Shown: positions 13,000 through 33,839 of the stretch, piece after piece | Numbering within the stretch: position 1 is the stretch's first letter | How the letters are laid out: every line of letters starts with the position of its first letter | From: Gemmataceae bacterium | Lineage (GTDB): Bacteria; Planctomycetota; Planctomycetia; Gemmatales; Gemmataceae | Assembly (NCBI GenBank): GCA_026419115.1 | Contig: JAOAAA010000016.1 | Coordinates: 1 to 42,714, forward strand | Direction of reading: 5' to 3' | Length of the DNA: 42,714 nt | Notes under the pieces: model-generated | Database searches by the model: none | What the model saw: only the letters and a program-made list of their open reading frames with translations | Told to the model about the DNA's origin: nothing | Made by a program: the position numbers and the translations under genes

Positions 13000-15900
13000 T
13001 TATTTGTTTCCCTCACTAAAGGAAAGTAAGCCCATCCCTTCGGGGCGGGGTTTGATCCCTGCGGGTCCCGACCATGCTTGAATCCCTACATTCGGGATAA
13101 TCCGAACCACATTCATGGCCCAAAGTTTGCCGGGGCTAATGGTTTCCCCAGTTAATTCTTTCAAGGGGATGGCAATCTCGGCGGTCCAGCCTTCTTCCTC
13201 CGCATTCACGGCCACATACCATTTGGGGTTCCAAGTTTTGTCCCCCCAACAATCTTCGGCAAGGGCACCCCGTTGATCGACACACAATCGGTAGTAAGTT
13301 TGGTAATCTCGATCGACATCAAGCATGATCTCGATCCGATCATATTGCGACAGATTCATATCTCGTTGGCGTTTCGTCAGAACCTCTTGCTTTTTCCCTT
13401 TGGGGTGTCGGCACACCACCGCGATGTACAAAAACTCGTCATCGTAGCAAAACATCGTTCTCGTCCCTTGGTCACGCAGATTTTGAACCTCACTGGGAGA
13501 AAGTTTTGCACTGGGAACGGCCAAATGCGATTGAATCAACTCTTCGATTGCCTCTTTCGAGCCATATCCTTCTAGGTTTTCTCCCGAAATGTTCGAGAGC
13601 AGGGAGGCAGAAGCCGTTTTCCAAATCGCTTCGTTGAGTTTGCCATCTAAATGAGGTCGGCTCTCGACTTTTTTGCACTGCAAAGCGGGTTTGGGAGCAG
13701 TCCTTCCGGAACGATTCATAAGCCATGATTCCATCAAGGCACATTCCCGCCAAGGATCGGAACCGCTAACCTGTGCTTGCCCACCGGTGGGAACAGCCGT
13801 TTCCGCAAGGTATTTTTGCAGCCATTTTTGGTTCGCATCGGCCAAACCCAATTGACGCTTCGCTGCGGCCAAGCAAAGCTGCGAGGCGGGATCGTTCCCG
13901 AAGGTCGCCCCATATTTCAACAGGTTATTCTCAAGGGCCAGAGCTTCACGCAACCACCGCCGACCTTCGGTCGCAGGGTCCATCGTTTCTCTGTGCGTGG
14001 CTTGAATGATTTCTGCTTTGGTTGGCATTTTATCTTCCAGCAGCAGTTCTTTCGGTCCCGAGATAGAAACCTCGATGAATTGCTTGGTTTCCATGCGGCG
14101 ACGTGCCTCTCCACTGGTTTGATAACGGACCAACCAACGATAGGCCTCGACCGCAGCTGCAGTGTCGGGGTATCGGGTCACGATGATCGAATAAATCTCC
14201 TTGGCAAGGAGCCATTGACCCTCTTGAGCATGATGCTCTGCAATTGATTGCAGGGTCCGAGCAGCCAAGTAGCTGGGCATATCCTTCGTTTCGCTCAGCA
14301 AGCGTGACAGCGCCTGTTCGGGTTGAACCAAGTCCCCGAGGTTCCCTTTAGCGAGAGATTCTAAACTGCGGCGTTTGTCGGACCATTTTTTGCGATTGTT
14401 TTGTTCTTCCCGTGTGATTGGTAAGGGGTCCCGTCGAGCCGCCCCACCGGGGGTGAGTGTGGGTATCCCATCAAAAAGGGAGCTATCCCCTTCGGCACTA
14501 ATTCGGGTTGCCATCAGACGAAAACTTCGGGTGAACGGACACGGAGGCAAATCCCAAATTTTACGGGCACCATCCGAAAGATCACTGGCAGTATCACCCC
14601 AACGAACCAGCGATTCAACCGTAGAGATTTTCACAAGAGCCGGATCGGCTTTTGGAGATAACGAATACAATTTTCGCGAAGCCCAAGGTCGTAATTTCAA
14701 CGCTGTGATTTGTTCTGAAAAGGCCTCTTCCTCGGCAGCGAGCTTAAAGGCCTCCTTCACGGCAGCGAGGGTAATGGCTTCGGCCACACCATCGCTATTC
14801 CCATCCGTAATGACAATATCGGGGCGCCATAGACGTATTGCCAAGACCAATTGACGAATCAACGCAGCCGAGGCTTTTTCTCCGTGCCGCCCCTCCCAAG
14901 ATGCAAGTAGTTCATCAGGTGGGATGCCTTCTTGATAATTGGTCACAGGGAATTGCCAAAGCTGTTCACCGATCGCTCCACCACAAGAACGCAAGGCAAA
15001 ACCTAGCCGTTGTTCATTCGTTGCGGACAAGGGATTCGCCGATCGATTCGCAATGGCCAATCGTTCGGGTTCGCTTTGGCCTTTTTTGCCCAAAGAGGGG
15101 GCCTCCTCTGCAATGACCGCAATTGAGGTGGTCAGGTATCCCTCTCCACCACCGAGCGAAGCTACCACATCGAAAGGAACGCCCTTGGCTCGGGCATGAA
15201 CAAATAAGACCGCGCTGCGCAGACCTCCGAGACGGGCCACTTGCCACGTTTTTCCACCATCTTCGGTCCGCAGAATGGTCCCATAATCGCCGGCCGCCCA
15301 ACCATTTTTCTCATCCACAAAATGAATGGCATGCAGCGGGGTCGTTTGATTGGTGTATTGAATCTCCCAAGATTTTCCTTCGTCCGGCGAGTGAAAAACC
15401 ACACTTCCCGGACGACCCGTCATCCAAACATGTTTCCCATGAACGGCAAGGGCATTAAAATCGATCTCGGTACGAAGTTCTTTGCTCAGTTTCAGATCAG
15501 GTAATCCCCAACGAACGCCCGACGAATCGGGGGAAATCAGGACCAAGGCTCCCGAACCAACGGCATAGGCACGTTCTCCAACCAATTTCACTTGTCGAAG
15601 GGTTCGTCCCCCCAAGCTATCAACATCAGCGGCAGCAAAACGTGAATTTTGATAAGGGGCAATTCTTCCCCAAGCACCGACGAGGACGCCCGTTTCCGGA
15701 TCGCTAAAATCCCCGCCGTACCATGTCGGGGAACGGGTGCCTGCCACCACCTTCCAGTTGATGCCCCCGTCCACAGTTCGGAAAACCCCTGTGGGTTGAC
15801 CGTCGCTGCCATCCCCATAGACAAAGCCATTTTTTTCATCGAAGAATTTCAGGCCGTTCAGGCCTGGTAACGCTCCGGTCGAAAGGGTTTTCCAAGTAAG

Positions 15901-16218
15901 CCCGCCGTCGGTGGTTCCCAGAACAAGCCCCATGGTTTTTTGATTGGGTAATTCCAAACGGGCGACGGCAAATCCAGTATAGGGATTGAGAAATTGGACC
16001 CCACGAATGGAACCTTTCGTTCCGCTCTCTTGGCGTTCCCACGTCTTGCCGGAATCAATGGTGTGCCAAATCACCCCTTCATCACCGGTGGCCCAACCTT
16101 CTTTCCCATCAGCAAAATGGATGGCCCGAATGGTGGCATCTCCCGTGTTGGCGGATACGACATTCGTCAAAACAACAACAAGCAAAATCGGGAGGAATCT
16201 GCGCATATGCATCCTCAA
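13000..16218 (-). CDS. Large secreted YCF48/LmbE-like/CBM9-like multidomain protein
   Basis: The 1072-residue product begins with a signal peptide (MRMHMRRFLPILLVVVLTNVVSA). Residues about 25-335 form a beta-propeller of YCF48/BNR type with repeated motifs such as DGGLTWKTL, DGGINWKVV and EDGGKTWQVA plus GWAAGDYGTI. Residues about 335-560 resemble the LmbE/PIG-L deacetylase fold (VVASLGGGEGYLTTS, then LWRPDIVITDG). The usual metal-binding HPDDE is not visible, so the domain is probably non-catalytic. Residues about 600-800 are helical, TPR-like. Residues about 860-1065 resemble a CBM9-type beta-sandwich (HLDGKLNEAIW ... FLYIAVVCRHP ... YDRIEIMLDVDRD). Such chains occur in planctomycetes. A role in carbohydrate sensing or attachment is a guess. 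Confidence 0.8.
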   Translation of the reverse strand: MRMHMRRFLPILLVVVLTNVVSANTGDATIRAIHFADGKEGWATGDEGVIWHTIDSGKTWERQESGTKGSIRGVQFLNPYTGFAVARLELPNQKTMGLVLGTTDGGLTWKTLSTGALPGLNGLKFFDEKNGFVYGDGSDGQPTGVFRTVDGGINWKVVAGTRSPTWYGGDFSDPETGVLVGAWGRIAPYQNSRFAAADVDSLGGRTLRQVKLVGERAYAVGSGALVLISPDSSGVRWGLPDLKLSKELRTEIDFNALAVHGKHVWMTGRPGSVVFHSPDEGKSWEIQYTNQTTPLHAIHFVDEKNGWAAGDYGTILRTEDGGKTWQVARLGGLRSAVLFVHARAKGVPFDVVASLGGGEGYLTTSIAVIAEEAPSLGKKGQSEPERLAIANRSANPLSATNEQRLGFALRSCGGAIGEQLWQFPVTNYQEGIPPDELLASWEGRHGEKASAALIRQLVLAIRLWRPDIVITDGNSDGVAEAITLAAVKEAFKLAAEEEAFSEQITALKLRPWASRKLYSLSPKADPALVKISTVESLVRWGDTASDLSDGARKIWDLPPCPFTRSFRLMATRISAEGDSSLFDGIPTLTPGGAARRDPLPITREEQNNRKKWSDKRRSLESLAKGNLGDLVQPEQALSRLLSETKDMPSYLAARTLQSIAEHHAQEGQWLLAKEIYSIIVTRYPDTAAAVEAYRWLVRYQTSGEARRRMETKQFIEVSISGPKELLLEDKMPTKAEIIQATHRETMDPATEGRRWLREALALENNLLKYGATFGNDPASQLCLAAAKRQLGLADANQKWLQKYLAETAVPTGGQAQVSGSDPWRECALMESWLMNRSGRTAPKPALQCKKVESRPHLDGKLNEAIWKTASASLLSNISGENLEGYGSKEAIEELIQSHLAVPSAKLSPSEVQNLRDQGTRTMFCYDDEFLYIAVVCRHPKGKKQEVLTKRQRDMNLSQYDRIEIMLDVDRDYQTYYRLCVDQRGALAEDCWGDKTWNPKWYVAVNAEEEGWTAEIAIPLKELTGETISPGKLWAMNVVRIIPNVGIQAWSGPAGIKPRPEGMGLLSFSEGNK

Positions 16219-16500: not shown

Positions 16501-16884
16501 TTAGTTATCCTTTTTGCGATTCTTGAACTTTTCCATCAACTCTTTTAGTTTTTCTTTGTCGAATTTCCCTTCGCCCAAACCGCCGAAGCCGCCCCCGAAT
16601 TTCTCGAACTCTTCTTTGGTGAGTTTACCGTCTTTATCGCCATCGAGTCGATCAAAAATCCGATCCGAGAAGTTACCGATTTTGTTGCCCCCTTTCGGAA
16701 GTCTGCTCATCAGGTCTTCAAAGTACTTGCTAAATTCTTCCTTGCTGAGTTTACCGTCTTTGTCGGCATCCATTTTTTCAAAGATTTCACCCACCTTGGG
16801 ATTGGCTTTTTTCTCTTCTTGTGCGAAGAGGCTCACATACGAAAAACCGACAACCAAGAGTAACATCATCGAGAAACGAATCAT
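16501..16884 (-). CDS. Secreted EF-hand calcium-binding protein
   Basis: This 127-residue protein has a signal peptide (MIRFSMMLLLVVGFSYVSLFA, cleavage near AQE) and two canonical EF-hand loops: DADKDGKLSKEEF (about residue 38) and DGDKDGKLTKEEF (about residue 79). Each loop keeps Asp at positions 1, 3 and 5, Gly at 6 and Glu at 12, so both should bind calcium. The C-terminal 45 residues are Gly- then Lys/Glu-rich. GGGAGG lies 6 bases before the ATG, a strong ribosome binding site. Small secreted EF-hand proteins are abundant in planctomycetes. Partners and function are unknown. Confidence 0.9.
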   Translation of the reverse strand: MIRFSMMLLLVVGFSYVSLFAQEEKKANPKVGEIFEKMDADKDGKLSKEEFSKYFEDLMSRLPKGGNKIGNFSDRIFDRLDGDKDGKLTKEEFEKFGGGFGGLGEGKFDKEKLKELMEKFKNRKKDN

Positions 16885-16949: not shown

Positions 16950-17180
16950 ATCTAAAAAAATCTCGGCGATTCCGAAGTTCGACGGGAAACTAGCCTTGTT
17001 TCCCCAAGGTCATGACCGAGGGCATCTGAAAAAATCTCGGCGATTCCGAGGTTCGATAGGATACTGGCGCAAACGGAGAGGTGTAAAACCAATTAGACCT
17101 CTGAAACGAGCTAACTGATCACGAGATGGCGGTGGCACCACAAAACGGAGAAGTGTAAGACCAATTAGACCTCCGAAACG
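16950..17180. repeat. Two direct-repeat pairs, one copying the end of the PhnD-like gene
   Basis: Pair 1: about 40 bases at 16950-16990 recur at 17024-17064 (core AATCTCGGCGATTCCGA), an offset of 74. Pair 2: 38 bases at 17071-17108 recur at 17143-17180 with 3 mismatches (core CCAATTAGACCT), an offset of 72. The second copy of pair 2 covers the stop codon and last codons of the gene ending at 17165, so the first copy is a duplicate of that gene's 3' end lying downstream of it. The gap 16885-17164 holds no gene. Confidence 0.75.
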
Positions 17181-17998
17181 TTAAGGGATATTTTTTGTTG
17201 TTCGACTGCCTCAAACAGGCTGGCATAGCCTCGGAGTCTTTCCCGTGTGGCCGGAAGCCATTCTTTCACCCCTTCCATTTCCATTAAGGGGCGCCAACGC
17301 GGATCGCTGTTTTTCATCGCAAGAAGGGATTCCACCCAGACTTTCGCTAAGCTCTCGGGAAAGTCGGCCAAGGCTGTGAACACACAATGGCAATAGCTGG
17401 GGGAGCGCCACAAGGCCACAAATTTTTCGGGATCGATTTTCCCTTCACTCACCCATTTTTGCCAAGTCAGTTCGGCGACGGCAACGGCTTGGGCCTGACC
17501 CGATAACAAAGCCTCGATGGCGTTCGTTTCGCTTGTCCCAGTATCACCATGTTTACCCACATCGACGTTAAAGCGGAGCAGTTTGCAATCTCGATCGGGT
17601 TGAAGATGAGCTTGTTGTAACCAATAAATCGGAAGGATCGCGGCTTGCACGGAATCGGCCGAGCCAAGGGCCAAGGTTTTCCCTTTCAGGTCTGCTGGAG
17701 AACGAACCGGAGATTCTTTTCGCGAACCGAGCACCGTGTAAAAACAGGCGTCTACATCTCGCATGGCAAGGGCCTTGCAGGTTCCATTGGTCAAGCGATA
17801 GGTTTTAACCCAAGCAAGGTTGGTGTTCCATGCAATATGAATATGCCGGCTCAATAACGATTGAACCAAACGATCATAATTAGAATAGAGTACGAAGTCG
17901 ATGGCAGGGCCAAACTCTCGGAAATACTCCCGCATGGCCTCCCAAATTGGTACACATTTGGCATCGTATGCCACTGCGCCGACGAGAATTTCTGTCAT
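17165..17998 (-). CDS. PhnD/SsuA-type substrate-binding protein without signal peptide
   Basis: This 277-residue protein belongs to the periplasmic-binding-protein-like fold used by phosphonate (PhnD), sulfonate and nitrate uptake systems. It shows the opening ILVGAVAYDAK, the ligand-loop region IHIAWNTNLAWVKTYR, SPADLKGKTLALGSADSVQA at the domain hinge, and SGQAQAVAVAELTW. It starts directly with the first strand, with no signal peptide or lipobox, so it is probably cytoplasmic. That is unusual for an uptake receptor, and no permease or ATPase is nearby. GGA lies 8 bases before the ATG. It is last in the minus-strand unit with the flavoprotein and the sulfur-carrier genes, separated from the flavoprotein gene by 190 bases. 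It may be a sensor or enzyme-like ligand binder. The ligand is unknown. Confidence 0.85.
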   Translation of the reverse strand: MTEILVGAVAYDAKCVPIWEAMREYFREFGPAIDFVLYSNYDRLVQSLLSRHIHIAWNTNLAWVKTYRLTNGTCKALAMRDVDACFYTVLGSRKESPVRSPADLKGKTLALGSADSVQAAILPIYWLQQAHLQPDRDCKLLRFNVDVGKHGDTGTSETNAIEALLSGQAQAVAVAELTWQKWVSEGKIDPEKFVALWRSPSYCHCVFTALADFPESLAKVWVESLLAMKNSDPRWRPLMEMEGVKEWLPATRERLRGYASLFEAVEQQKISLNVSEV

Positions 17999-18188
17999 CT
18001 CATTGTTCCTTTTCGTAGTAGTTAAACTTGAGACTCAGTGCTAACGTCCCAGTTTGGATTCAAGTTGTATGCTAGGAACCGTCTTAGGTAAACCTCATTA
18101 TGAATCAGGCAGTTCCCATTAGGTAAACCCCCATAGGTAGGTAACACGATTGGGGTAAAAGGGGACTGAAATCAAACTTAGATGAAGA

Positions 18189-19328
18189 TTAAAATAAAGG
18201 CATGTCTAACAGGGCTTTCCCAATGAAATCCTGAAGGACATCGGTCGTGGGGGCCATTACCCAAGCCGCTCGCGCATCACGGAAATTTCTTTCAACGGTG
18301 AGATGCTTGCTGAAGGCAGCGCCCCCGCAGGTTCGCATGGCCAAATCGGTTAGTTCAAGGGCCATTTCCGAAACGGCGGCCTTGCTTTCGAGAACGGCGA
18401 GCATCACATCGGGGGCATTAGTCTCCATCTTGTGCGCGACCTGTTCGATAAAGGCCAAGTGGGTGTCGTACAGAATTTTCATTCGAGCGAGTCTTCCTCG
18501 GAGGTTCGGCAAGGAAGCCAAATTTTGCCCCAAATGTTCGAGTTTAGAATTGAGTAAATGGGTCCGAGTCGATTCAATCGCAGCGGCACAAATCCCGAGC
18601 GAGACCGAGGCATTTCCCAGTTGGAACCAAGGGAGTACCGAACTCATCATTGAGCCAAAGCCCCCCCCCTCGGGGCTGAGTAATTCATCCACCCCAAGGA
18701 ATACGTTTTCAAGTTTCATCGGCGCACTGGCATTGCCACGAAGACCTAGCCCATTCCAGAGACTGGTTACCGAAACCCCCTCTTGTGTTTTCTCGACGTA
18801 GAACAAATTACTGGTAGTGCCCTCTTTTGCATTGACCGCCTGAGTTGAGACTACATAACTATCGGCATGGCCCGCGCTGGTGACCCATGATTTTTGGGCC
18901 GAGACCGATTGTTTATCTCCTTGAGGCACGGCTTGGCTGACCGGTGCCCAAAAATGGCTCCGTGAACCTTTTTCGCTAAATGCCAATGTGGTGAGGTGAT
19001 TTCCCGAGGCGATTCTTTGCAGAATCTCGTTTCGGCGGGGGAAGGCAGGGGCATCGATAATCACGCGTGTTCCGCAGATGTGCATCAAAAAAATCATTCC
19101 AGTGGAAGCACATTCTTGAGCGATAATACGGGTCACTTTCGCAAATACCGAGGGGCCTGCACCCATGCCACCGAATTCCGTAGGAACGACCAACCCGAGC
19201 AGTTTTGATTGTTTTAGAGCATCGATGGACTCGGCAGGCCAACGACCGTCAGTATCAACTTCGCTTGCATAGCGACGAATGGTTTCGGTTGCAACTTTTT
19301 CAGCCAACGAGACAATATCCACACTCAT
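18189..19328 (-). CDS. Acyl-CoA dehydrogenase-family flavoprotein, atypical active site
   Basis: The 379-residue product has the whole acyl-CoA dehydrogenase fold: an N-terminal helical domain with LGLVVPTEFGGMGAG (about 52-66), a middle beta domain (LTTLAFSEKGSRSHFW; AQKSWVTSAGHADSY), and a C-terminal four-helix domain ending MRTCGGAAFSKHLTVERNFRDARA. In true dehydrogenases the last helix carries a Tyr-Glu-Gly-Thr stretch whose Glu is the base. Here the aligned stretch reads VMAPTTDVLQDFIGK, with no Glu. Flavin monooxygenases of the DszC/SfnC type share this fold without the base. Substrate unknown. The gene sits between the TusA-MetE fusion and the PhnD-like gene, so a role on an organosulfur compound is possible but inferred. 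Confidence 0.85.
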   Translation of the reverse strand: MSVDIVSLAEKVATETIRRYASEVDTDGRWPAESIDALKQSKLLGLVVPTEFGGMGAGPSVFAKVTRIIAQECASTGMIFLMHICGTRVIIDAPAFPRRNEILQRIASGNHLTTLAFSEKGSRSHFWAPVSQAVPQGDKQSVSAQKSWVTSAGHADSYVVSTQAVNAKEGTTSNLFYVEKTQEGVSVTSLWNGLGLRGNASAPMKLENVFLGVDELLSPEGGGFGSMMSSVLPWFQLGNASVSLGICAAAIESTRTHLLNSKLEHLGQNLASLPNLRGRLARMKILYDTHLAFIEQVAHKMETNAPDVMLAVLESKAAVSEMALELTDLAMRTCGGAAFSKHLTVERNFRDARAAWVMAPTTDVLQDFIGKALLDMPLF

Positions 19329-19414
19329 GATTGGTACTCTCTGGGAAGAAACGTTATTGTAAGCAAACTACTAAGAATCAAAAACGAACTCCTCATCTTG
19401 GGGCCAATTTCCCT

Positions 19415-20932
19415 TTAAGAAATCGAGTATCTTGAACGAAGAATTTTCGCAGCTTCAACGATATTAGCCAGCTTTGCCTCGGCGATTTCTGCAGAAGCAA
19501 TGGGGTTATCCGCAAAGGTAGCAAAGCCACAATCGGGATTGAGAAGCAATCGTTCGGGGCCAAAAATCGCGAGGGCTTTTTCGGCTTTCTGAACAATTTC
19601 CTCTACCGTCTCGACACGATCTTCTTTTTGGTTGACGACCCCTAGGCCTATCCGACTATTAGCAGGGAGTTCTTTAAGTACATCCAATTCGCCTGCTCGC
19701 GGGGTGGCCATTTCTAAGAAATAAGTCCCTACCGGAATGGCCTGTAGCAATCCGAGTAAGGGGGTATACGGGCCGGTTAAAGCAACCCGTTCATCTTTGG
19801 TCCAGTTTCCACGGCAAATGTGGAGGGCTAATCGTTCTTGAGGAAATCCCTTGAGGGTTTGGCTCAGTAAATGTTGAGCAAAGGCTAATTCTTGTTCAGG
19901 CGGGCGTTTTTCTCCCAAAGCCCCGCACATAAAAGTTCGCCCACTGGTAGGGCGTGTGAAAACCACTTCCGTAAGAACGGGTTCATCCAATTGGACTAAA
20001 CTGGTGCCGGCATTGAGTAGAGCTTCTATCTCATCACGAAGAACAGTGACAAGATCGGCAGCGAGTTCTTCTCGATTCGGATACGCCCGATCCGAAACGC
20101 ATTCCAACCACATGGTTCGGGTTAGTAAATAAGGTCCCGGTAATGCGATTTTGATGGGTTTCTCGGTGATTCGTTGTAAGCGGGTCAACTCGTGAACGGT
20201 CAAGGGGCGATTTCGTTCGATCCGACCAAAAACGGCCGGATGCCGGACCTGTTCCGCAGGAACATCGAGGGATTCGAGTTCCCGAGCAAAATGTTCCGGA
20301 TCATCGACATAAGGGAGCAAATCGGTGATGGGAATGAGCTGGCAATTATCAAGGCGATTGCCTACGAAACTGGCGTAATTGTCGCGACGTTGTTCTCCGT
20401 CGGTAATGACATCGACACCCGCGCGCTCTTGTGCAGCGACCACCAAGCGAACCGCATCATCGGCATACTGTTGAAATTGCTCTTCCGAAAGGCGATTCGA
20501 CAACCGATTATGCAGAGCTTCCAACAACCAACGGGGTCTAGGCCAACTGCCAATACCCATCACGGATAAAGGGGGAATCGGTTGCGGCCCTTTGGGGGGG
20601 GGCGTTGTCCTAGAAGGAGAAGGTTGGGTTGCTGCTTTTAAGGGCACGGGTTCCGTTTGCTTTTGAGCAGGGAGGAAAGGCCCCTTCGAGATGAGGAAAC
20701 TCCGGAGATTTCCCTGACGGGTCGCCGAGACCAATTCATTTTTGGTCAGGCGGCACCAAGCAGGAAGTTCCACTTCAACTGTGGCATCAGTCGAGCGAAT
20801 TTCCAGCAATTCACTGGGGTTCAAGGGATCAATATGCTTCCGAATCAGCAAAAGCAGACCATTCCCGCAAGTGAGATCGCCTCCATCGAAAGAGACCTTG
20901 GGGGTGTGCGAATGTTGAGTGGCCCAGTCCAT
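19415..20932 (-). CDS. TusA-like domain fused to core methionine synthase (MetE C-terminal type)
   Basis: The 505-residue protein has two parts joined by a Pro-rich linker (about 86-120). Residues about 12-84 are a TusA/SirA-like domain with Cys22 in DLTCGNGLLLLIRK and a second Cys60 in LPAWCRL. The usual Cys-Pro is Cys-Gly here. Residues about 121-505 match the catalytic half of cobalamin-independent methionine synthase, with MGIGSWPRPRWL at the start. The zinc ligands of MetE appear to be present as His and Cys in ALHICRGNW, Glu in YFLEMATP, and Cys in LLNPDCGF. The N-terminal half of full-length MetE (about 750 residues) is absent, as in folate-independent core-MetE families. It probably methylates homocysteine, or uses a thiol or persulfide, from an unknown methyl donor. 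It lies 34 bases after the DsrE gene. Confidence 0.88.
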   Translation of the reverse strand: MDWATQHSHTPKVSFDGGDLTCGNGLLLLIRKHIDPLNPSELLEIRSTDATVEVELPAWCRLTKNELVSATRQGNLRSFLISKGPFLPAQKQTEPVPLKAATQPSPSRTTPPPKGPQPIPPLSVMGIGSWPRPRWLLEALHNRLSNRLSEEQFQQYADDAVRLVVAAQERAGVDVITDGEQRRDNYASFVGNRLDNCQLIPITDLLPYVDDPEHFARELESLDVPAEQVRHPAVFGRIERNRPLTVHELTRLQRITEKPIKIALPGPYLLTRTMWLECVSDRAYPNREELAADLVTVLRDEIEALLNAGTSLVQLDEPVLTEVVFTRPTSGRTFMCGALGEKRPPEQELAFAQHLLSQTLKGFPQERLALHICRGNWTKDERVALTGPYTPLLGLLQAIPVGTYFLEMATPRAGELDVLKELPANSRIGLGVVNQKEDRVETVEEIVQKAEKALAIFGPERLLLNPDCGFATFADNPIASAEIAEAKLANIVEAAKILRSRYSIS

Positions 20933-20966
20933 GCAGTAACCTACAAAAGCGGGGTCAAATGAAAAT

Positions 20967-21329
20967 CTAGTAGGTCACACTGGGGCATGAATCGCCCATG
21001 AACTCGACGAGTTTGGCACCTCCTACAATCATCGCACCTGCCACGAGGTTGTTTTCATCGAGTTGACGTTTTTTGAAGCAGGGGGAGCAAACATAAATTT
21101 TCCCACCTGCGTTCACAAAGTTGGTCATGAGGTCCTTCAGGGGGGAAAAGCCCGCCTCGGCAATATCGTCGGCGTAGCCTTTGACCGCGAGTCGAACCCC
21201 TTCGATACTCAAGAAAACGATCGCTTCCTTATCTGAGGCCGCAGCGGCATTGGCCACGACAAAGCCAACCGTAGCTTTATCCGGATTATCCTTAGCGGAA
21301 GTAATACTCACGCAGAATTTACCAGCCAT
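20967..21329 (-). CDS. DsrE-family sulfur-relay protein
   Basis: From the ATG at 21329, with GAGGAG 7 bases upstream, this is a 120-residue protein (an upstream in-frame start would overlap the previous gene and is not needed). The fold fits the DsrE/DsrF/peroxiredoxin-like family. It has an N-terminal strand KFCVSITS, a central helix, EAIVFLSIEGVRLAVKG, and a CxxC motif at C81 and C84 in YVCSPCFKKRQL. The ending AGAMIVGGAKLVEFMGDS is characteristic. Such proteins carry persulfide or act as reductases in sulfur relays. The start lies 2 bases after the stop of the TusA-like gene, and its ribosome binding site is inside that gene's last codons, which means tight coupling. Confidence 0.92.
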   Translation of the reverse strand: MAGKFCVSITSAKDNPDKATVGFVVANAAAASDKEAIVFLSIEGVRLAVKGYADDIAEAGFSPLKDLMTNFVNAGGKIYVCSPCFKKRQLDENNLVAGAMIVGGAKLVEFMGDSCPSVTY

Positions 21330-21331
21330 GT

Positions 21332-21568
21332 TTATTCTCCTCTGCGACGAATCCAATAATTCGGGTGATGGTGTGCGATCAACTGGTGTCCTGTCATTCG
21401 GCACCAAGCCGGAATGTCCTCGATTGCACCTTCATCTTGTGCAATTAATTTCAAGACGGCGCTGGGACGCATATTATTCAGACGAATTCTTAGGAGCATG
21501 ACTAATTCTCCGCATCCCATCATACCGGCATCCCAAATTTCGTCTGGATTGATAATCGATTCGTTCAT
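21332..21568 (-). CDS. TusA/SirA-like sulfur-carrier protein
   Basis: This 78-residue single-domain protein resembles the N-terminal domain of the MetE fusion two genes downstream. The shared pattern is a Cys-Gly at the active turn (Cys19 in WDAGMMGCGELVMLLRIR), a hydrophobic strand, an Asp/Glu turn, and the motif IPAWCRMTGHQLI with a second Cys56. TusA proteins carry sulfur as a persulfide on the first Cys. The usual Cys-Pro-x-Pro motif is Cys-Gly here, so it is a divergent member. It heads a minus-strand unit of five genes and its promoter should lie in the divergent region before bioB. It has no signal peptide. Confidence 0.88.
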   Translation of the reverse strand: MNESIINPDEIWDAGMMGCGELVMLLRIRLNNMRPSAVLKLIAQDEGAIEDIPAWCRMTGHQLIAHHHPNYWIRRRGE

Positions 21569-21631: not shown

Positions 21632-21723
21632 GGGAATTTATTCGGAGGGTGATTGTTGGCGATCTTTTGGAGAGTCTAGGGCTTCATCTTGCTTTTTATT
21701 TCGAGAGTATTTACAAAGGATTT

Positions 21724-22662
21724 ATGAAAACTCTCGCTGAATTTCAATCGGTTTATAATCTCCCGTTGATGGAATTGATCCTCAAAGCGGCCGAGGTCCA
21801 CAAAGCGAATCGGCAGGCTAATGATATTCAACGCTGTGCCCTTTTGAGTATCAAAACGGGGGGATGTCCCGAAGATTGCAAATACTGCTCGCAGTCGGCC
21901 CATTACGATACCCCTGTGGAACGCCAACCTTTGATGAGCGTCGAAGAAGTGAAGCTCCGTGCAAAGGAAGCACGCGATCGGGGGGCAACCCGTTTTTGTA
22001 TGGGGGCAGCGTGGCGGTCTCCCAAGGATGGTCCGCAGTTCGATGAAGTCTTGCAGATGGTCCGCGAGGTTCGTCAACTAGGTATGGAGGCCTGTGTGAC
22101 CTTGGGGATGCTGACCGAGGAACAATCGCTGCGCCTCAAAGAAGCGGGGCTAACTGCCTACAACCATAACCTTGACACCTCTAGGCGATTTTATCCCGAA
22201 ATTATTACGACCCGAACCTTCGATGATCGCATCCAGACACTCAAAGCGGTTGCGAAAGCGGGTATCTCGGTCTGTAGTGGCGGCATCATTGGGATGGGGG
22301 AAACCGTCGAAGATCGTTTAATGATGCTTGTCGAGTTAGCGAACTTGGAAACCCCGCCCGAGAGCGTGCCGATCAACGTGCTGATGCCACAACAGGGAAC
22401 ACCCCTCCAAATGGCGCCGACGGTCGATTCCTTGGAATTAATTCGCCTGATTGCCACAACACGGATTGCGTTTCCAAAAGCCCGTGTTCGACTGAGTGCC
22501 GGACGCGATAAAATGTCTCGGGAAACTCAAATTCTCTGTTTCCTAGCGGGGGCCGATTCGGTCTTCTATGGTGAAAAACTCCTCACGGCACCAAACCCCG
22601 ATAGCGATGCCGATGCCCAGCTTTTCCGCGAGTTAGGGCTTCCGATTCCGAGCAGTTGTTAG
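21724..22662 (+). CDS. bioB: Biotin synthase
   Basis: This is a radical-SAM enzyme that inserts sulfur into dethiobiotin to form biotin, using a [4Fe-4S] SAM cluster and a sacrificial [2Fe-2S] cluster. The ATG at 21724 is chosen because AAAGGA lies just upstream and the next in-frame ATG upstream (21649) adds a non-conserved stretch. The product is 312 residues. The radical-SAM cysteines are C48, C52 and C55 in GGCPEDCKYCSQS. Other BioB blocks are FCMGAAWRSPKDG, YNHNLDTS, SVCSGGIIGMGE, PINVLMPQQGTPL and the late RLSAGRDKMS. All key residues are present. No other biotin gene is adjacent. It is divergent from the sulfur-carrier unit. Confidence 0.97.
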   Translation: MKTLAEFQSVYNLPLMELILKAAEVHKANRQANDIQRCALLSIKTGGCPEDCKYCSQSAHYDTPVERQPLMSVEEVKLRAKEARDRGATRFCMGAAWRSPKDGPQFDEVLQMVREVRQLGMEACVTLGMLTEEQSLRLKEAGLTAYNHNLDTSRRFYPEIITTRTFDDRIQTLKAVAKAGISVCSGGIIGMGETVEDRLMMLVELANLETPPESVPINVLMPQQGTPLQMAPTVDSLELIRLIATTRIAFPKARVRLSAGRDKMSRETQILCFLAGADSVFYGEKLLTAPNPDSDADAQLFRELGLPIPSSC

Positions 22663-22771
22663 CCTGCGATCTCTGAACTGTGGAAAGTTTCGCGCCGGCC
22701 ATCATCTTCTCTTTTGGAAAATGACAATTTCTCTAGAATGCCCCTAAGATTTTGGATGCTTCGAGAAAAAC

Positions 22772-24805
22772 ATGTCTTCATTTGGCTTCTATCGTGTTGC
22801 GGCCGCTTGTCCACAACTTAAACTTGCTGATCCAGCTTTCAACGCAGGGGTCACGTTAGACCTCATGCAACAAGCCTCGGAAAACGAGACCGACATTCTG
22901 GTTTTTCCAGAGCTTTCTTTAACCGGTTACACCTGTCAGGATCTCTTTTTTCAAAAGGTCTTGCTTTCGAGTGTTTTGGAATCGTTAAAGGTCGTGGTCT
23001 CGGCATCGGGGACCTTATTTTCTGGGCTGGTTTTCGTTGGGGTTCCATTAATCGTAGACGATCAGATTTTTAATTGTGCGGTGGCCATTCAAAAGGGAAC
23101 CATTCTGGGAATCGTTCCAAAATCTTATCTTCCCAATTACAAGGAATTTTATGATGCTCGTTTCTTCGCTCCGGCAGCAACGGCACAATCGAACTCGGTG
23201 AACCTTTGGGGGCAAAATATCCCCTTTGGGACCGATCTCCTTTTCGTGAGTCCCGATCATAAAGGGGTCGGCATTGGTGTGGAAATCTGCGAAGATTTAT
23301 GGGTGCCCATTCCGCCAAGTTGTGTGCAGGCCATACACGGTGCCCATATTCTGCTGAATCTCTCGGCAAGTAACGAAACGGTTGCAAAAGCCAACTATCG
23401 GCGGCAATTGGTTCTGAATCAATCGGCTCGATGTATCGCGGCGTATGTATACGCTGCGGCGGGGAGTGGGGAATCTTCCAACGATTTGGTTTTTGGGGGG
23501 CATTGTTTGATCGCCGAGAATGGGTCCTTATTGGCCGAGGGGAAGCGGTTTCAACGCGAGTCGAGTTGTCTTTATGCCGATGTCGATGTCGAGCATCTGA
23601 TTTTTGAAAGAACACTAAAAACGAGTTTCGGCGATGGGGTTTTATACTCGGGGGCGGGGGGCAAGCAATCGTTCCGCCGCATTCCTTGTACTTTCTCGAA
23701 GAGAAATCCTAAGGGCAAATTATTTCGCTCTATCGATCCACATCCGTTTGTACCATCGCAATCTCATCAACTCCAAGAACGCTGCGAGGAGATATTCCAA
23801 ATTCAAACAGCCGCTTTAGTGAGAAGATTGGAAACGGTGAACCCCCCAAAAGTAGCAATTGGAGTTTCGGGAGGATTAGATTCGACGTTGGCACTTTTAG
23901 TGTTGTGCAAAGCATTCGATCAATTGGGATGGCCACGCGAGCGGATTTGTGCCTTGACGATGCCCGGTTTCGGGACCAGTTCTCGGACCAAAAATAATGC
24001 AACCTTGCTCATGGAAAAGCTGCGAACCCCCTACAAGACGATTGATATTCGCCCGCTGGCCTTCGAGGAAATGCGAGCTTTGGGCCATTCCCCTTTTGGA
24101 ATTCCGCTGGAATCCCATACGGTGGAAAGCCTGAGCGAAGAGTTCCGAAACGTGCCCCCAGAACGCTTAAATGATTTGGTTTTTGAAAATATCCAAGCTC
24201 GACTCCGAACCAACTTATTGATGAATAGTGGCTTTGTGATTGGCACGGGCGACCTAAGCGAGTTAGCCTTGGGGTGGTGTACCTACAATGCCGACCACAT
24301 GAGTATGTATAACCCGAATGTCAGTATTCCAAAAACATTGGTCAAGTTCCTTGTACGCTGGGCAGCGGAAAATGAATTTGAAGAACCCGTTCGATCGATT
24401 CTCCTTGATATTGTCGCGACAGAAATTTCGCCCGAACTGTTGCCCACCAATCATACCGGCCAAATCCAATCCACCGAGGCAACCGTCGGGCCGTATGAAT
24501 TGCATGATTTCTTTTTGTACCATCTCATGAGGTACGGTACTTCCCCTCGGAAAATTTTCTTCTTGGCTTTACAAACGCAATTCGACCGAAAGTATTCTCC
24601 TGAAGAAATCCAAAAATGGTTACAGGTATTTCTCAAACGCTTTTTTAACAATCAATTCAAGCGATCCTGTTTACCGGATGGGCCGAAGGTAGGTTCGGTC
24701 AGCCTTTCTCCAAGGGGGGATTGGCGTATGCCTTCGGATGCTTCTTCGGCAGCTTGGCTGAATGATTTGGCCCAATTCCCTATCGAGCCGATGAATGAAC
24801 TATGA
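22772..24805 (+). CDS. nadE: Glutamine-dependent NAD(+) synthetase
   Basis: This 677-residue enzyme converts deamido-NAD and glutamine to NAD. Residues about 1-290 are a CN-hydrolase glutaminase with the Glu-Lys-Cys triad: Glu47 in VFPELSLTGYTC, Lys in PKSYLPNYKEF near 120, and Cys in VEICEDLW near 173. Residues about 330-677 are the ATP-pyrophosphatase synthetase with the P-loop GVSGGLDSTLALLV (about 364-377), TGDLSELALGWCTYNADHMSMYN and NHTGQIQ. The layout matches the long glutamine-dependent NadE class found in Mycobacterium and many bacteria, not the short ammonia-dependent form. Its stop overlaps the tsaD start (ATGA, 24802-24805), so the two genes are translationally coupled. Confidence 0.96.
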   Translation: MSSFGFYRVAAACPQLKLADPAFNAGVTLDLMQQASENETDILVFPELSLTGYTCQDLFFQKVLLSSVLESLKVVVSASGTLFSGLVFVGVPLIVDDQIFNCAVAIQKGTILGIVPKSYLPNYKEFYDARFFAPAATAQSNSVNLWGQNIPFGTDLLFVSPDHKGVGIGVEICEDLWVPIPPSCVQAIHGAHILLNLSASNETVAKANYRRQLVLNQSARCIAAYVYAAAGSGESSNDLVFGGHCLIAENGSLLAEGKRFQRESSCLYADVDVEHLIFERTLKTSFGDGVLYSGAGGKQSFRRIPCTFSKRNPKGKLFRSIDPHPFVPSQSHQLQERCEEIFQIQTAALVRRLETVNPPKVAIGVSGGLDSTLALLVLCKAFDQLGWPRERICALTMPGFGTSSRTKNNATLLMEKLRTPYKTIDIRPLAFEEMRALGHSPFGIPLESHTVESLSEEFRNVPPERLNDLVFENIQARLRTNLLMNSGFVIGTGDLSELALGWCTYNADHMSMYNPNVSIPKTLVKFLVRWAAENEFEEPVRSILLDIVATEISPELLPTNHTGQIQSTEATVGPYELHDFFLYHLMRYGTSPRKIFFLALQTQFDRKYSPEEIQKWLQVFLKRFFNNQFKRSCLPDGPKVGSVSLSPRGDWRMPSDASSAAWLNDLAQFPIEPMNEL

Positions 24806-25824
24806 CGAATCCCGTGTATTTCTTAGCTCTAGAATCCTCCTGCGATGAAACGGCCGCCGCAGTCTTTACCGACGATCGCCGGATACTATCGAATGTGGTG
24901 GCCTCCCAAACGGAACTGCATGCCCGTTTTGGCGGCGTCGTACCGGAAATTGCCTCGCGCGCCCATTTGCGAAATCTTTTACCGGTCATCGATGAATCGT
25001 TGCGGCAAGCCAACATCAGGCTCGAACAGATTGGCTGTGTGGTCGTCCACAATATGCCCGGTTTGGTGGGTTCGCTGATGATGGGGGTCAGTGCCGCGAA
25101 AATACTTTCCTTGGCTTTGAATGTCCCTCTCATTGCCGTGAATCATATTCTGGGGCATATCTATGCTTGCCAAATCCCTGACTCTAGACCAATGTATCCT
25201 TGCATCGGTTTTGTGGTGAGTGGTGGGCATACCGCGTTATTTCATTGTCAAGACCCCTTAACAGTGCAGTTTCTGGGGGGCACTCGGGATGATGCTGCCG
25301 GTGAAGCCTTCGATAAAGTGGCCGCGATTCTGGGACTTGGCTTTCCGGGTGGGCCAAATCTCGAAAAAGAGGCCCAGAAAGGGGACCCCAATGCGTACCA
25401 ATTTCCCAGAACGTTTCTTAAGGAAGATCGTTTAGAATTCAGTTTCTCGGGCATTAAAACGGCCGTCCTGTACACCGCACAAGGACAAGATGCCAAAATC
25501 AGTGAAAAGATTGGCTCCGGTCCAACTCGGGCCAATATCGCAGCGAGTTTTCAACGGGCCGTCGTAGAGGTTTTAGTCAGCAAGGCTATTCAAGCCGTGA
25601 AAAAATTTCGGGTCAATCGACTAGCAGTTGGTGGAGGTGTGATTGCCAATCAGGCTTTTCGGCAATTATTAATTCAGGAATGCAACAAATATGGAATTGA
25701 ACTTTTTATTCCCCCTCGCGATTTATGTACCGACAATGCTGCAATGGCAGCGTTAGCCATTGAAAAATATAAACAGGGGGATTTTGCTAATTTAAGTCTC
25801 GATGCCGAAGCCAATTTTATTTAA
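24802..25824 (+). CDS. tsaD: tRNA N6-adenosine threonylcarbamoyltransferase
   Basis: TsaD transfers the threonylcarbamoyl group to A37 of ANN-decoding tRNAs (t6A), working with TsaB and TsaE. The 340-residue product has the family length and the opening FLALESSCDETAAAV. The metal-binding HxxxH pair is in VNHILGHIYA (about residues 114 and 118), with FVVSGGHTALF, DDAAGEAFDKVA, FSGIKTAV, AVGGGVIANQAFR and the C-terminal CTDNAAMAALA with the catalytic Asp. All are intact. It shares 4 bases with nadE. TsaB, TsaC and TsaE are not in the window. Confidence 0.97.
   Translation: MTNPVYFLALESSCDETAAAVFTDDRRILSNVVASQTELHARFGGVVPEIASRAHLRNLLPVIDESLRQANIRLEQIGCVVVHNMPGLVGSLMMGVSAAKILSLALNVPLIAVNHILGHIYACQIPDSRPMYPCIGFVVSGGHTALFHCQDPLTVQFLGGTRDDAAGEAFDKVAAILGLGFPGGPNLEKEAQKGDPNAYQFPRTFLKEDRLEFSFSGIKTAVLYTAQGQDAKISEKIGSGPTRANIAASFQRAVVEVLVSKAIQAVKKFRVNRLAVGGGVIANQAFRQLLIQECNKYGIELFIPPRDLCTDNAAMAALAIEKYKQGDFANLSLDAEANFI

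Positions 25825-33751: not shown

Positions 33752-33839
<88 letters not shown>

Follow-up and report, generated by a model that had tools for sequence, protein, structure and literature searches.

A TusA-DsrE-MetE gene unit of a planctomycete is linked to selenium and may serve methylselenium salvage

The 42,714-nucleotide contig JAOAAA010000016.1 of a Gemmataceae bacterium (hereafter the window) carries five genes on its minus strand, at 17165-21568, which encode a TusA-like carrier, a DsrE-family carrier, a second TusA-like domain (TusA') fused to a core methionine synthase (MetE), a FadE16-like flavoprotein and a PhnD-type binding protein. Gene context and protein sequence lend good support to a link between this unit and selenium rather than ordinary methionine synthesis. 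We propose that it salvages selenium from methylated selenium compounds for use in selenocysteine (Sec), a proposal for which we judge the case to be evenly balanced. A preliminary description had read the genes as a sulfur-to-methionine unit. The class of chemistry was probably right, as chalcogen carriers are indeed coupled to a zinc- and homocysteine-binding methyltransferase, while the element and the purpose were probably wrong. Sulfur is not supported because the modules described below lie with sel genes, are enriched together with SelD, and contain a MetE that is a probable selenoprotein in two genomes. Methionine as the purpose is not supported because the window genome already has MetH, which also rules out a role as its sole methionine synthase. 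The unit had been called undescribed, and in the literature searched we found no account of the gene set and nothing functional on either Rv1679-Rv1681 or sets of TusA, DsrE, OsmC and MetE.

The five proteins and the Cys/UGA position of the MetE core

All five open reading frames (ORFs) run in the same direction, and the intergenic gaps recompute to exactly the 2, 34, 86 and 190 bp first reported; the host assembly is that of a planctomycete (4.26 Mb, 92% complete). The fusion protein (505 aa, 19415..20932, minus strand, as are all features of the unit) matches Pfam Meth_synt_2 with 123.7 bits and has a TusA-like domain, not a folate-binding domain, at its N-terminus. Its core MetE domain (residues 116-505, 19418..20587) retains the zinc ligands H371, C373, E407 and C468 as well as the homocysteine residues S129, E180 and D316 (equivalent to S433, E484 and D599), all of which are invariant wherever readable across the aligned loci. 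The zinc-site methionine synthase core of the preliminary description is thereby borne out. The protein is distant from named families, scoring 105 bits against the cut-off of 929.95 for full-length MetE (TIGR01371) and 194 against 406 for PRK04326, the closest NCBIfam entry to the core. In Foldseek searches an AF2 model (pLDDT 84) matched MetE and the MesD structure 3RPD best (TM 0.84, normalized to target length); weaker matches were to proteins of the UROD fold, among them the methanogen coenzyme M methyltransferase 4ay7.

An additional Cys specific to this family, Cys336 in the motif TFMC[GA], was found in 44 of 49 loci (codon TGC in the window, 19925..19927); within the close family it is invariant but for the two UGA cases given next. 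The five loci without it comprise one truncated locus, two divergent paralogues and two genomes, G104 and G232, in which an in-frame UGA stands exactly at this position. Past the UGA the two MetE sequences remain 72% identical, and their differences are biased to the third codon position (97 versus 33 and 26) in the same pattern as before it; the codon is therefore evidently read through. SelA and SelB are both encoded in each of the two genomes. In sequence comparisons, alternation between UGA and a Cys codon is the usual mark of a Sec/Cys pair at a catalytic residue, and the MetE core of G104 and G232 is thus a probable selenoprotein. Apart from this position, the scan of the module proteins showed no conserved Cys with UGA in its place, and a broader search covering 392 genomes yielded no additional case. 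Hairpins fold after the UGA in both genomes, yet in a search for Sec insertion elements (SECIS) the Cys versions folded equally well. A divergent MetE paralogue in genome G035, with Trp in place of Cys336, carries UGA in frame where a Trp is otherwise conserved (L153:9393-9397), and is possibly a pseudogene or an assembly error.

The two TusA-like domains share a Cys-Gly in place of the CPxP motif, followed by PAWCR, in agreement with what had been noted earlier. The stand-alone carrier (78 aa, 21332..21568) has Cys19 within MGCGE and Cys56 within PAWCR, and matches Pfam TusA (PF01206) with 41.9 bits, above the cut-off; TusA' (residues 1-90 of the fusion, 20663..20932), with Cys22 in LTCGNG and Cys60, reaches 26.3 bits, slightly under the cut-off of 28.6. 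The TusA sulfurtransferase family NF001423, which is marked by CPxP, was matched with 50.5 bits against a cut-off of 78. The DsrE-family carrier (120 aa, 20967..21329; Pfam DsrE, 61.7 bits) has a CSPC motif, in which both Cys are kept in 37 of 37 homologues.

The flavoprotein (379 aa, 18189..19328) consists of the N, M and C domains of Pfam Acyl-CoA dehydrogenase, and lacks the catalytic Glu of these enzymes, as first reported; at its usual site the alignment shows an invariant MAP[TV]. It matches the Rv1679/FadE16 family (NF049984) over its full length with 455 bits against a cut-off of 600. The binding protein (277 aa, 17165..17998) matches the Rv1680 family (NF049985) with 329 bits against 400, and Pfam Phosphonate-bd with 115 bits; it has no signal peptide, the mature fold beginning at the N-terminus, which points to a cytosolic protein. 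Both are full-length homologues of the adjacent Mycobacterium tuberculosis Rv1679 and Rv1680, and as they score under the NCBIfam equivalog cut-offs we do not count them as certified equivalogs. In the binding protein H204-C205 is invariant and GKHGD conserved, and Foldseek searches with its AF2 model (pLDDT 94.5) matched PhnD, PtxB, HtxB, ArrX and AioX, all of which are oxyanion binders.

Two modules and their selenium context

Gene order was compared using locus maps from a composition-scored gene caller and tblastn, and co-occurrence in a sample of 294 planctomycete genomes with tests that ignore relatedness. Two modules were recognized: module A, TusA-DsrE-TusA'(-OsmC)-core MetE, and module B, the FadE16-like flavoprotein and the binding protein with one interchangeable third enzyme. 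Module A is contiguous and co-directional at 26 other planctomycete loci, nine in genomes of the same family (where DsrE is 57-79% identical, n=9) and 17 in other families, so that the arrangement exceeds chance. In 14 of these 17, TusA' and MetE are separated by an OsmC domain, frequently within a single long ORF. Next to the module A genes of genome G230 we observed a lipoprotein with two tandem binding-protein domains (L169:9959-11728, minus strand), a candidate extracellular binding protein for selenium compounds.

The third enzyme of module B is a core MetE in 11 planctomycete genomes, with OsmC present wherever the fetched flank suffices. In 17 genomes it is a ferritin-like diiron protein (AurF/DUF455/R2lox type), usually with an N-terminal TusA-like domain, and on two actinobacterial plasmids it is a TusA-radical S-adenosylmethionine (SAM) protein; a third such plasmid has a radical SAM protein that lacks the TusA-like domain, and three more module B loci lie at contig ends or could not be assigned. 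In the TusA-diiron fusions, an architecture for which we found no description, the second Cys is kept in WC (L075:10044-11306 and other diiron loci).

The window unites both modules, and in G104 they lie within 4 kb of each other. Module A was present in 16 of 27 genomes with module B versus 27 of 267 others (p=1e-8), although some of these cases are the binding protein-MetE-FadE16 hybrid itself. The expectation that all five families would co-occur in order was borne out for module A only: module A often occurs without the flavoprotein and the binding protein, these two combine with different third partners at other loci, and none of the 11 same-family relatives with the TusA-MetE fusion has FadE16; the five-gene unit as such is therefore not conserved.

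The connection to selenium is seen in the surroundings of both modules. On plasmid pFER4 of Paracoccus ferrooxidans the order is SufS, TusA, DsrE, two inserted genes, TusA'-MetE, selA and trxB, where the fusion is 58% identical to that of the window and selA starts 77 bp downstream of it; selB, tRNA-Sec and a weak match to a UGSC (seleno)protein lie within the same 25 kb. The order on pBEN of P. versutus agrees for the genes compared. The two inserted Paracoccus genes encode a 168 aa membrane protein and a 522 aa exported protein (L101:9859-11943, plus strand), neither with a Pfam or NCBIfam match. In Miltoncostaea oceani the FadE16-like protein, the binding protein and an Rv1681-like radical SAM protein adjoin selB-selA-selD, and in the planctomycete G298 selB is about 6 kb from FadE16-MetE-binding protein-OsmC. 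Between selBAD and FadE16 of Miltoncostaea lie an AhpD-like protein, a GT2 and an arsenosugar-type glycosyltransferase-NUDIX protein (L105:4181-8761). The selenium link was further supported by co-occurrence across the Planctomycetota: of the 54 genomes that carry A or B, 48 encode SelD, compared with 148 of the 240 that carry neither (p=4e-5). The absence of SelD from the remaining six is probably due to incomplete assembly, since five of them carry SelA or SelB; the sixth genome is 77% complete. The window genome encodes SelD and SelA.

Outside the unit, bioB, an NAD+ synthase and tsaD (21649-25824, plus strand) are divergent from it, with the bioB start about 80 bp from tusA. A biotin link was considered and dropped, as the module occurs without a nearby bioB in the fetched same-family relatives. 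On the 3' side of the binding-protein gene two near-identical hairpins with T runs (TCGGAATCGCCGAGATTTTTT; 16962-17050, minus strand) are likely repeated terminator-like elements. They are followed by an EF-hand-like protein (16501-16884) and, adjoining it, a Ycf48-like protein of 1072 aa (13000-16218, minus strand). The sole tRNA of the window is a tRNA-Ser(GGA) at 33752-33839 (minus strand).

A proposed route and its alternatives

In the route we propose, the flavoprotein and the cytosolic binding protein, with its oxyanion-type fold and His-Cys pair, would prepare a small methylated selenium compound or deliver it, e.g. methylseleninate or methylselenol. Within the fusion, the methylselenium group would be held at TusA' and/or at residue 336 (Cys, or Sec in some species), where the zinc-activated homocysteine thiolate of the MetE domain could accept the methyl group, yielding methionine and selenide in the form of perselenide. 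From there TusA and DsrE, joined by OsmC in many species, may hand the selenium on towards SelD and Sec, a direction suggested by the gene context. Where module B stands alone, the TusA-diiron or TusA-radical SAM enzyme would substitute for MetE. The job shared by the three partners is most simply demethylation, since each of these chemistries is able to take off a methyl group or cleave a C-Se or C-S bond. We infer demethylation also because MetE-type enzymes move methyl groups to a homocysteine thiolate, and because in Methanococcus an sdmABC-like operon rises together with tusA and tusD on selenium depletion, and a related Mlp methyltransferase uses selenide.

The same chemistry could instead act on sulfur, converting methanethiol or another methyl-sulfur compound to methionine and persulfide, with TusA and DsrE feeding general thiolation and the sel neighbourhood being incidental. 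This agrees with the classical role of TusA and DsrE as sulfur carriers, with the module B homologues of mycobacteria and with the weak use of sulfide by the selenide-active relative, but it leaves aside the 77 bp between the fusion gene and selA, with selB and tRNA-Sec close by, the enrichment with SelD and the predicted Sec at position 336. We consider it unlikely, and grant it this much because some TusA-like domains lack the first Cys and because FadE16 and the binding protein occur in M. tuberculosis. Another possibility is a folate-independent methionine synthase, with methionine as its purpose and methyl groups taken from sulfur compounds. MetH, found in the window genome and in 56 of 59 genomes searched, speaks against such a need, and the selA linkage and the UGA at Cys336 would go unexplained; even with a complete zinc and homocysteine site and a core MetE without the folate-binding domain, like MesA-MesD (PMC7857596), this appears very improbable to us.

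The MetE fold might also serve as a scaffold for selenide or persulfide, its zinc site binding selenide itself and passing it to TusA' without any methyl transfer. The fusion itself, the contexts in which TusA' meets OsmC and the added thiol or selenol at position 336 would suit a scaffold; the three homocysteine residues, needless for it, nevertheless stay invariant, and the replacement of MetE by diiron and radical SAM proteins suggests chemistry that makes or breaks bonds, which leaves the scaffold doubtful indeed. Finally, TusA-DsrE-TusA'MetE and FadE16-binding protein could be two unrelated operons that are neighbours by chance, as the 86 and 190 bp gaps and the lack of FadE16 in all 11 same-family fusion genomes would allow. 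In 11 other genomes, however, MetE adjoins the binding protein and FadE16, and with the proximity of A and B in G104 and their co-occurrence we think a chance arrangement improbable.

Several observations weigh against the selenium salvage proposal. Where a TusA-like domain is fused to the diiron or radical SAM partner, its first Cys is missing, and it may be unlike classical TusA as a perselenide carrier. No SelB was detected in the genome of the window, the 6-20 kb stretches examined around planctomycete module A loci contain no sel gene, and SelD is common in Planctomycetota, which bears on tests that ignore relatedness; in the window's own family there is no clear SelD enrichment, the trait being too common there to discriminate. 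Homologues of FadE16 and the binding protein occur in M. tuberculosis, an organism that is not known to make Sec.

Selenium is widespread in the environment in methylated form, and salvage as proposed would open a bacterial route from methyl-selenium to Sec, with MetE of the module A type in 25 of the planctomycete families sampled and in Paracoccus. Selenide and SAM can also react non-enzymatically to give methylselenol (a point discussed in PMC10418091), and the system could therefore recycle the cell's own selenium losses. This bears on the question of how the cell brings free selenide to SelD while avoiding its toxicity and its loss by methylation. The proposal would further mark out MetE proteins with this Cys/Sec residue as a new branch of their superfamily, suggest a candidate role for the TusA and TusD transcripts that increase alongside methyl-selenide demethylases when Methanococcus is starved of selenium, and offer a possible function for the uncharacterised Rv1679-Rv1681 family. 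In its full form it posits an undescribed selenium salvage beyond anaerobes, in which a MetE-like family with a catalytic Cys/Sec, fused to or beside TusA, transfers the methyl group of methyl-selenium to homocysteine and perselenide passes via TusA, DsrE and OsmC to Sec synthesis, the FadE16-linked methyltransferase being interchangeable with diiron or radical SAM demethylases. This wider claim we put forward tentatively, at somewhat less than even confidence.

Comparison with known systems

The flavoprotein shares the acyl-CoA dehydrogenase fold with 3-sulfinopropionyl-CoA desulfinase, SfnB and DszC, which it matches with 139, 113 and 69 bits, far below the 455 bits for the Rv1679 family. 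In mycobacterial Rv1679-Rv1680-Rv1681, the first two genes correspond to the flavoprotein and the binding protein, whereas the third encodes a radical SAM protein whose TusA-like N-terminus is truncated, and in place of this protein the window unit has MetE. YedF (TIGR03527) likewise ties TusA-type and DsrE-type domains to selenium use (PMC5322559). Membership in this family was rejected, as no match was obtained at E<1 and the window has two genes rather than one chain, with Cys-Gly replacing CPxP. MesA-MesD have Meth_synt_2 without the folate-binding domain and the same zinc and homocysteine residues; the window family differs in its fusion to TusA, the OsmC adjoining or fused in relatives, the extra Cys336/Sec, the MetH of the genome and the selA linkage.

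The closest counterparts in predicted function are SdmABC and the type I mlp systems of Methanococcus and Firmicutes, with predicted demethylation of methyl-selenium for selenoproteins, a related methyltransferase fold and a strong association with Sec. SdmABC has been linked to the use of dimethylselenide, and when M. maripaludis was depleted of selenium, tusA and tusD transcripts increased by 4.5-4.6 log2 together with the sdmABC-like operon (PMC11097638). For related Mlp methyltransferases, activity with selenide has been shown in vitro, and Sec machinery is encoded by 87% of the species that carry them (PMC10418091). These systems of anaerobes combine UROD-family methyltransferases with a corrinoid protein, neither of which was found among the five window proteins by Pfam and NCBIfam searches; here a MetE-family core is fused to TusA, with flavoprotein or diiron partners. 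Taken together, a corrinoid-dependent counterpart to the predicted job is known from anaerobes, and what is new is the enzyme family with its Cys/Sec residue, its fusion to TusA and the exchange of partners.

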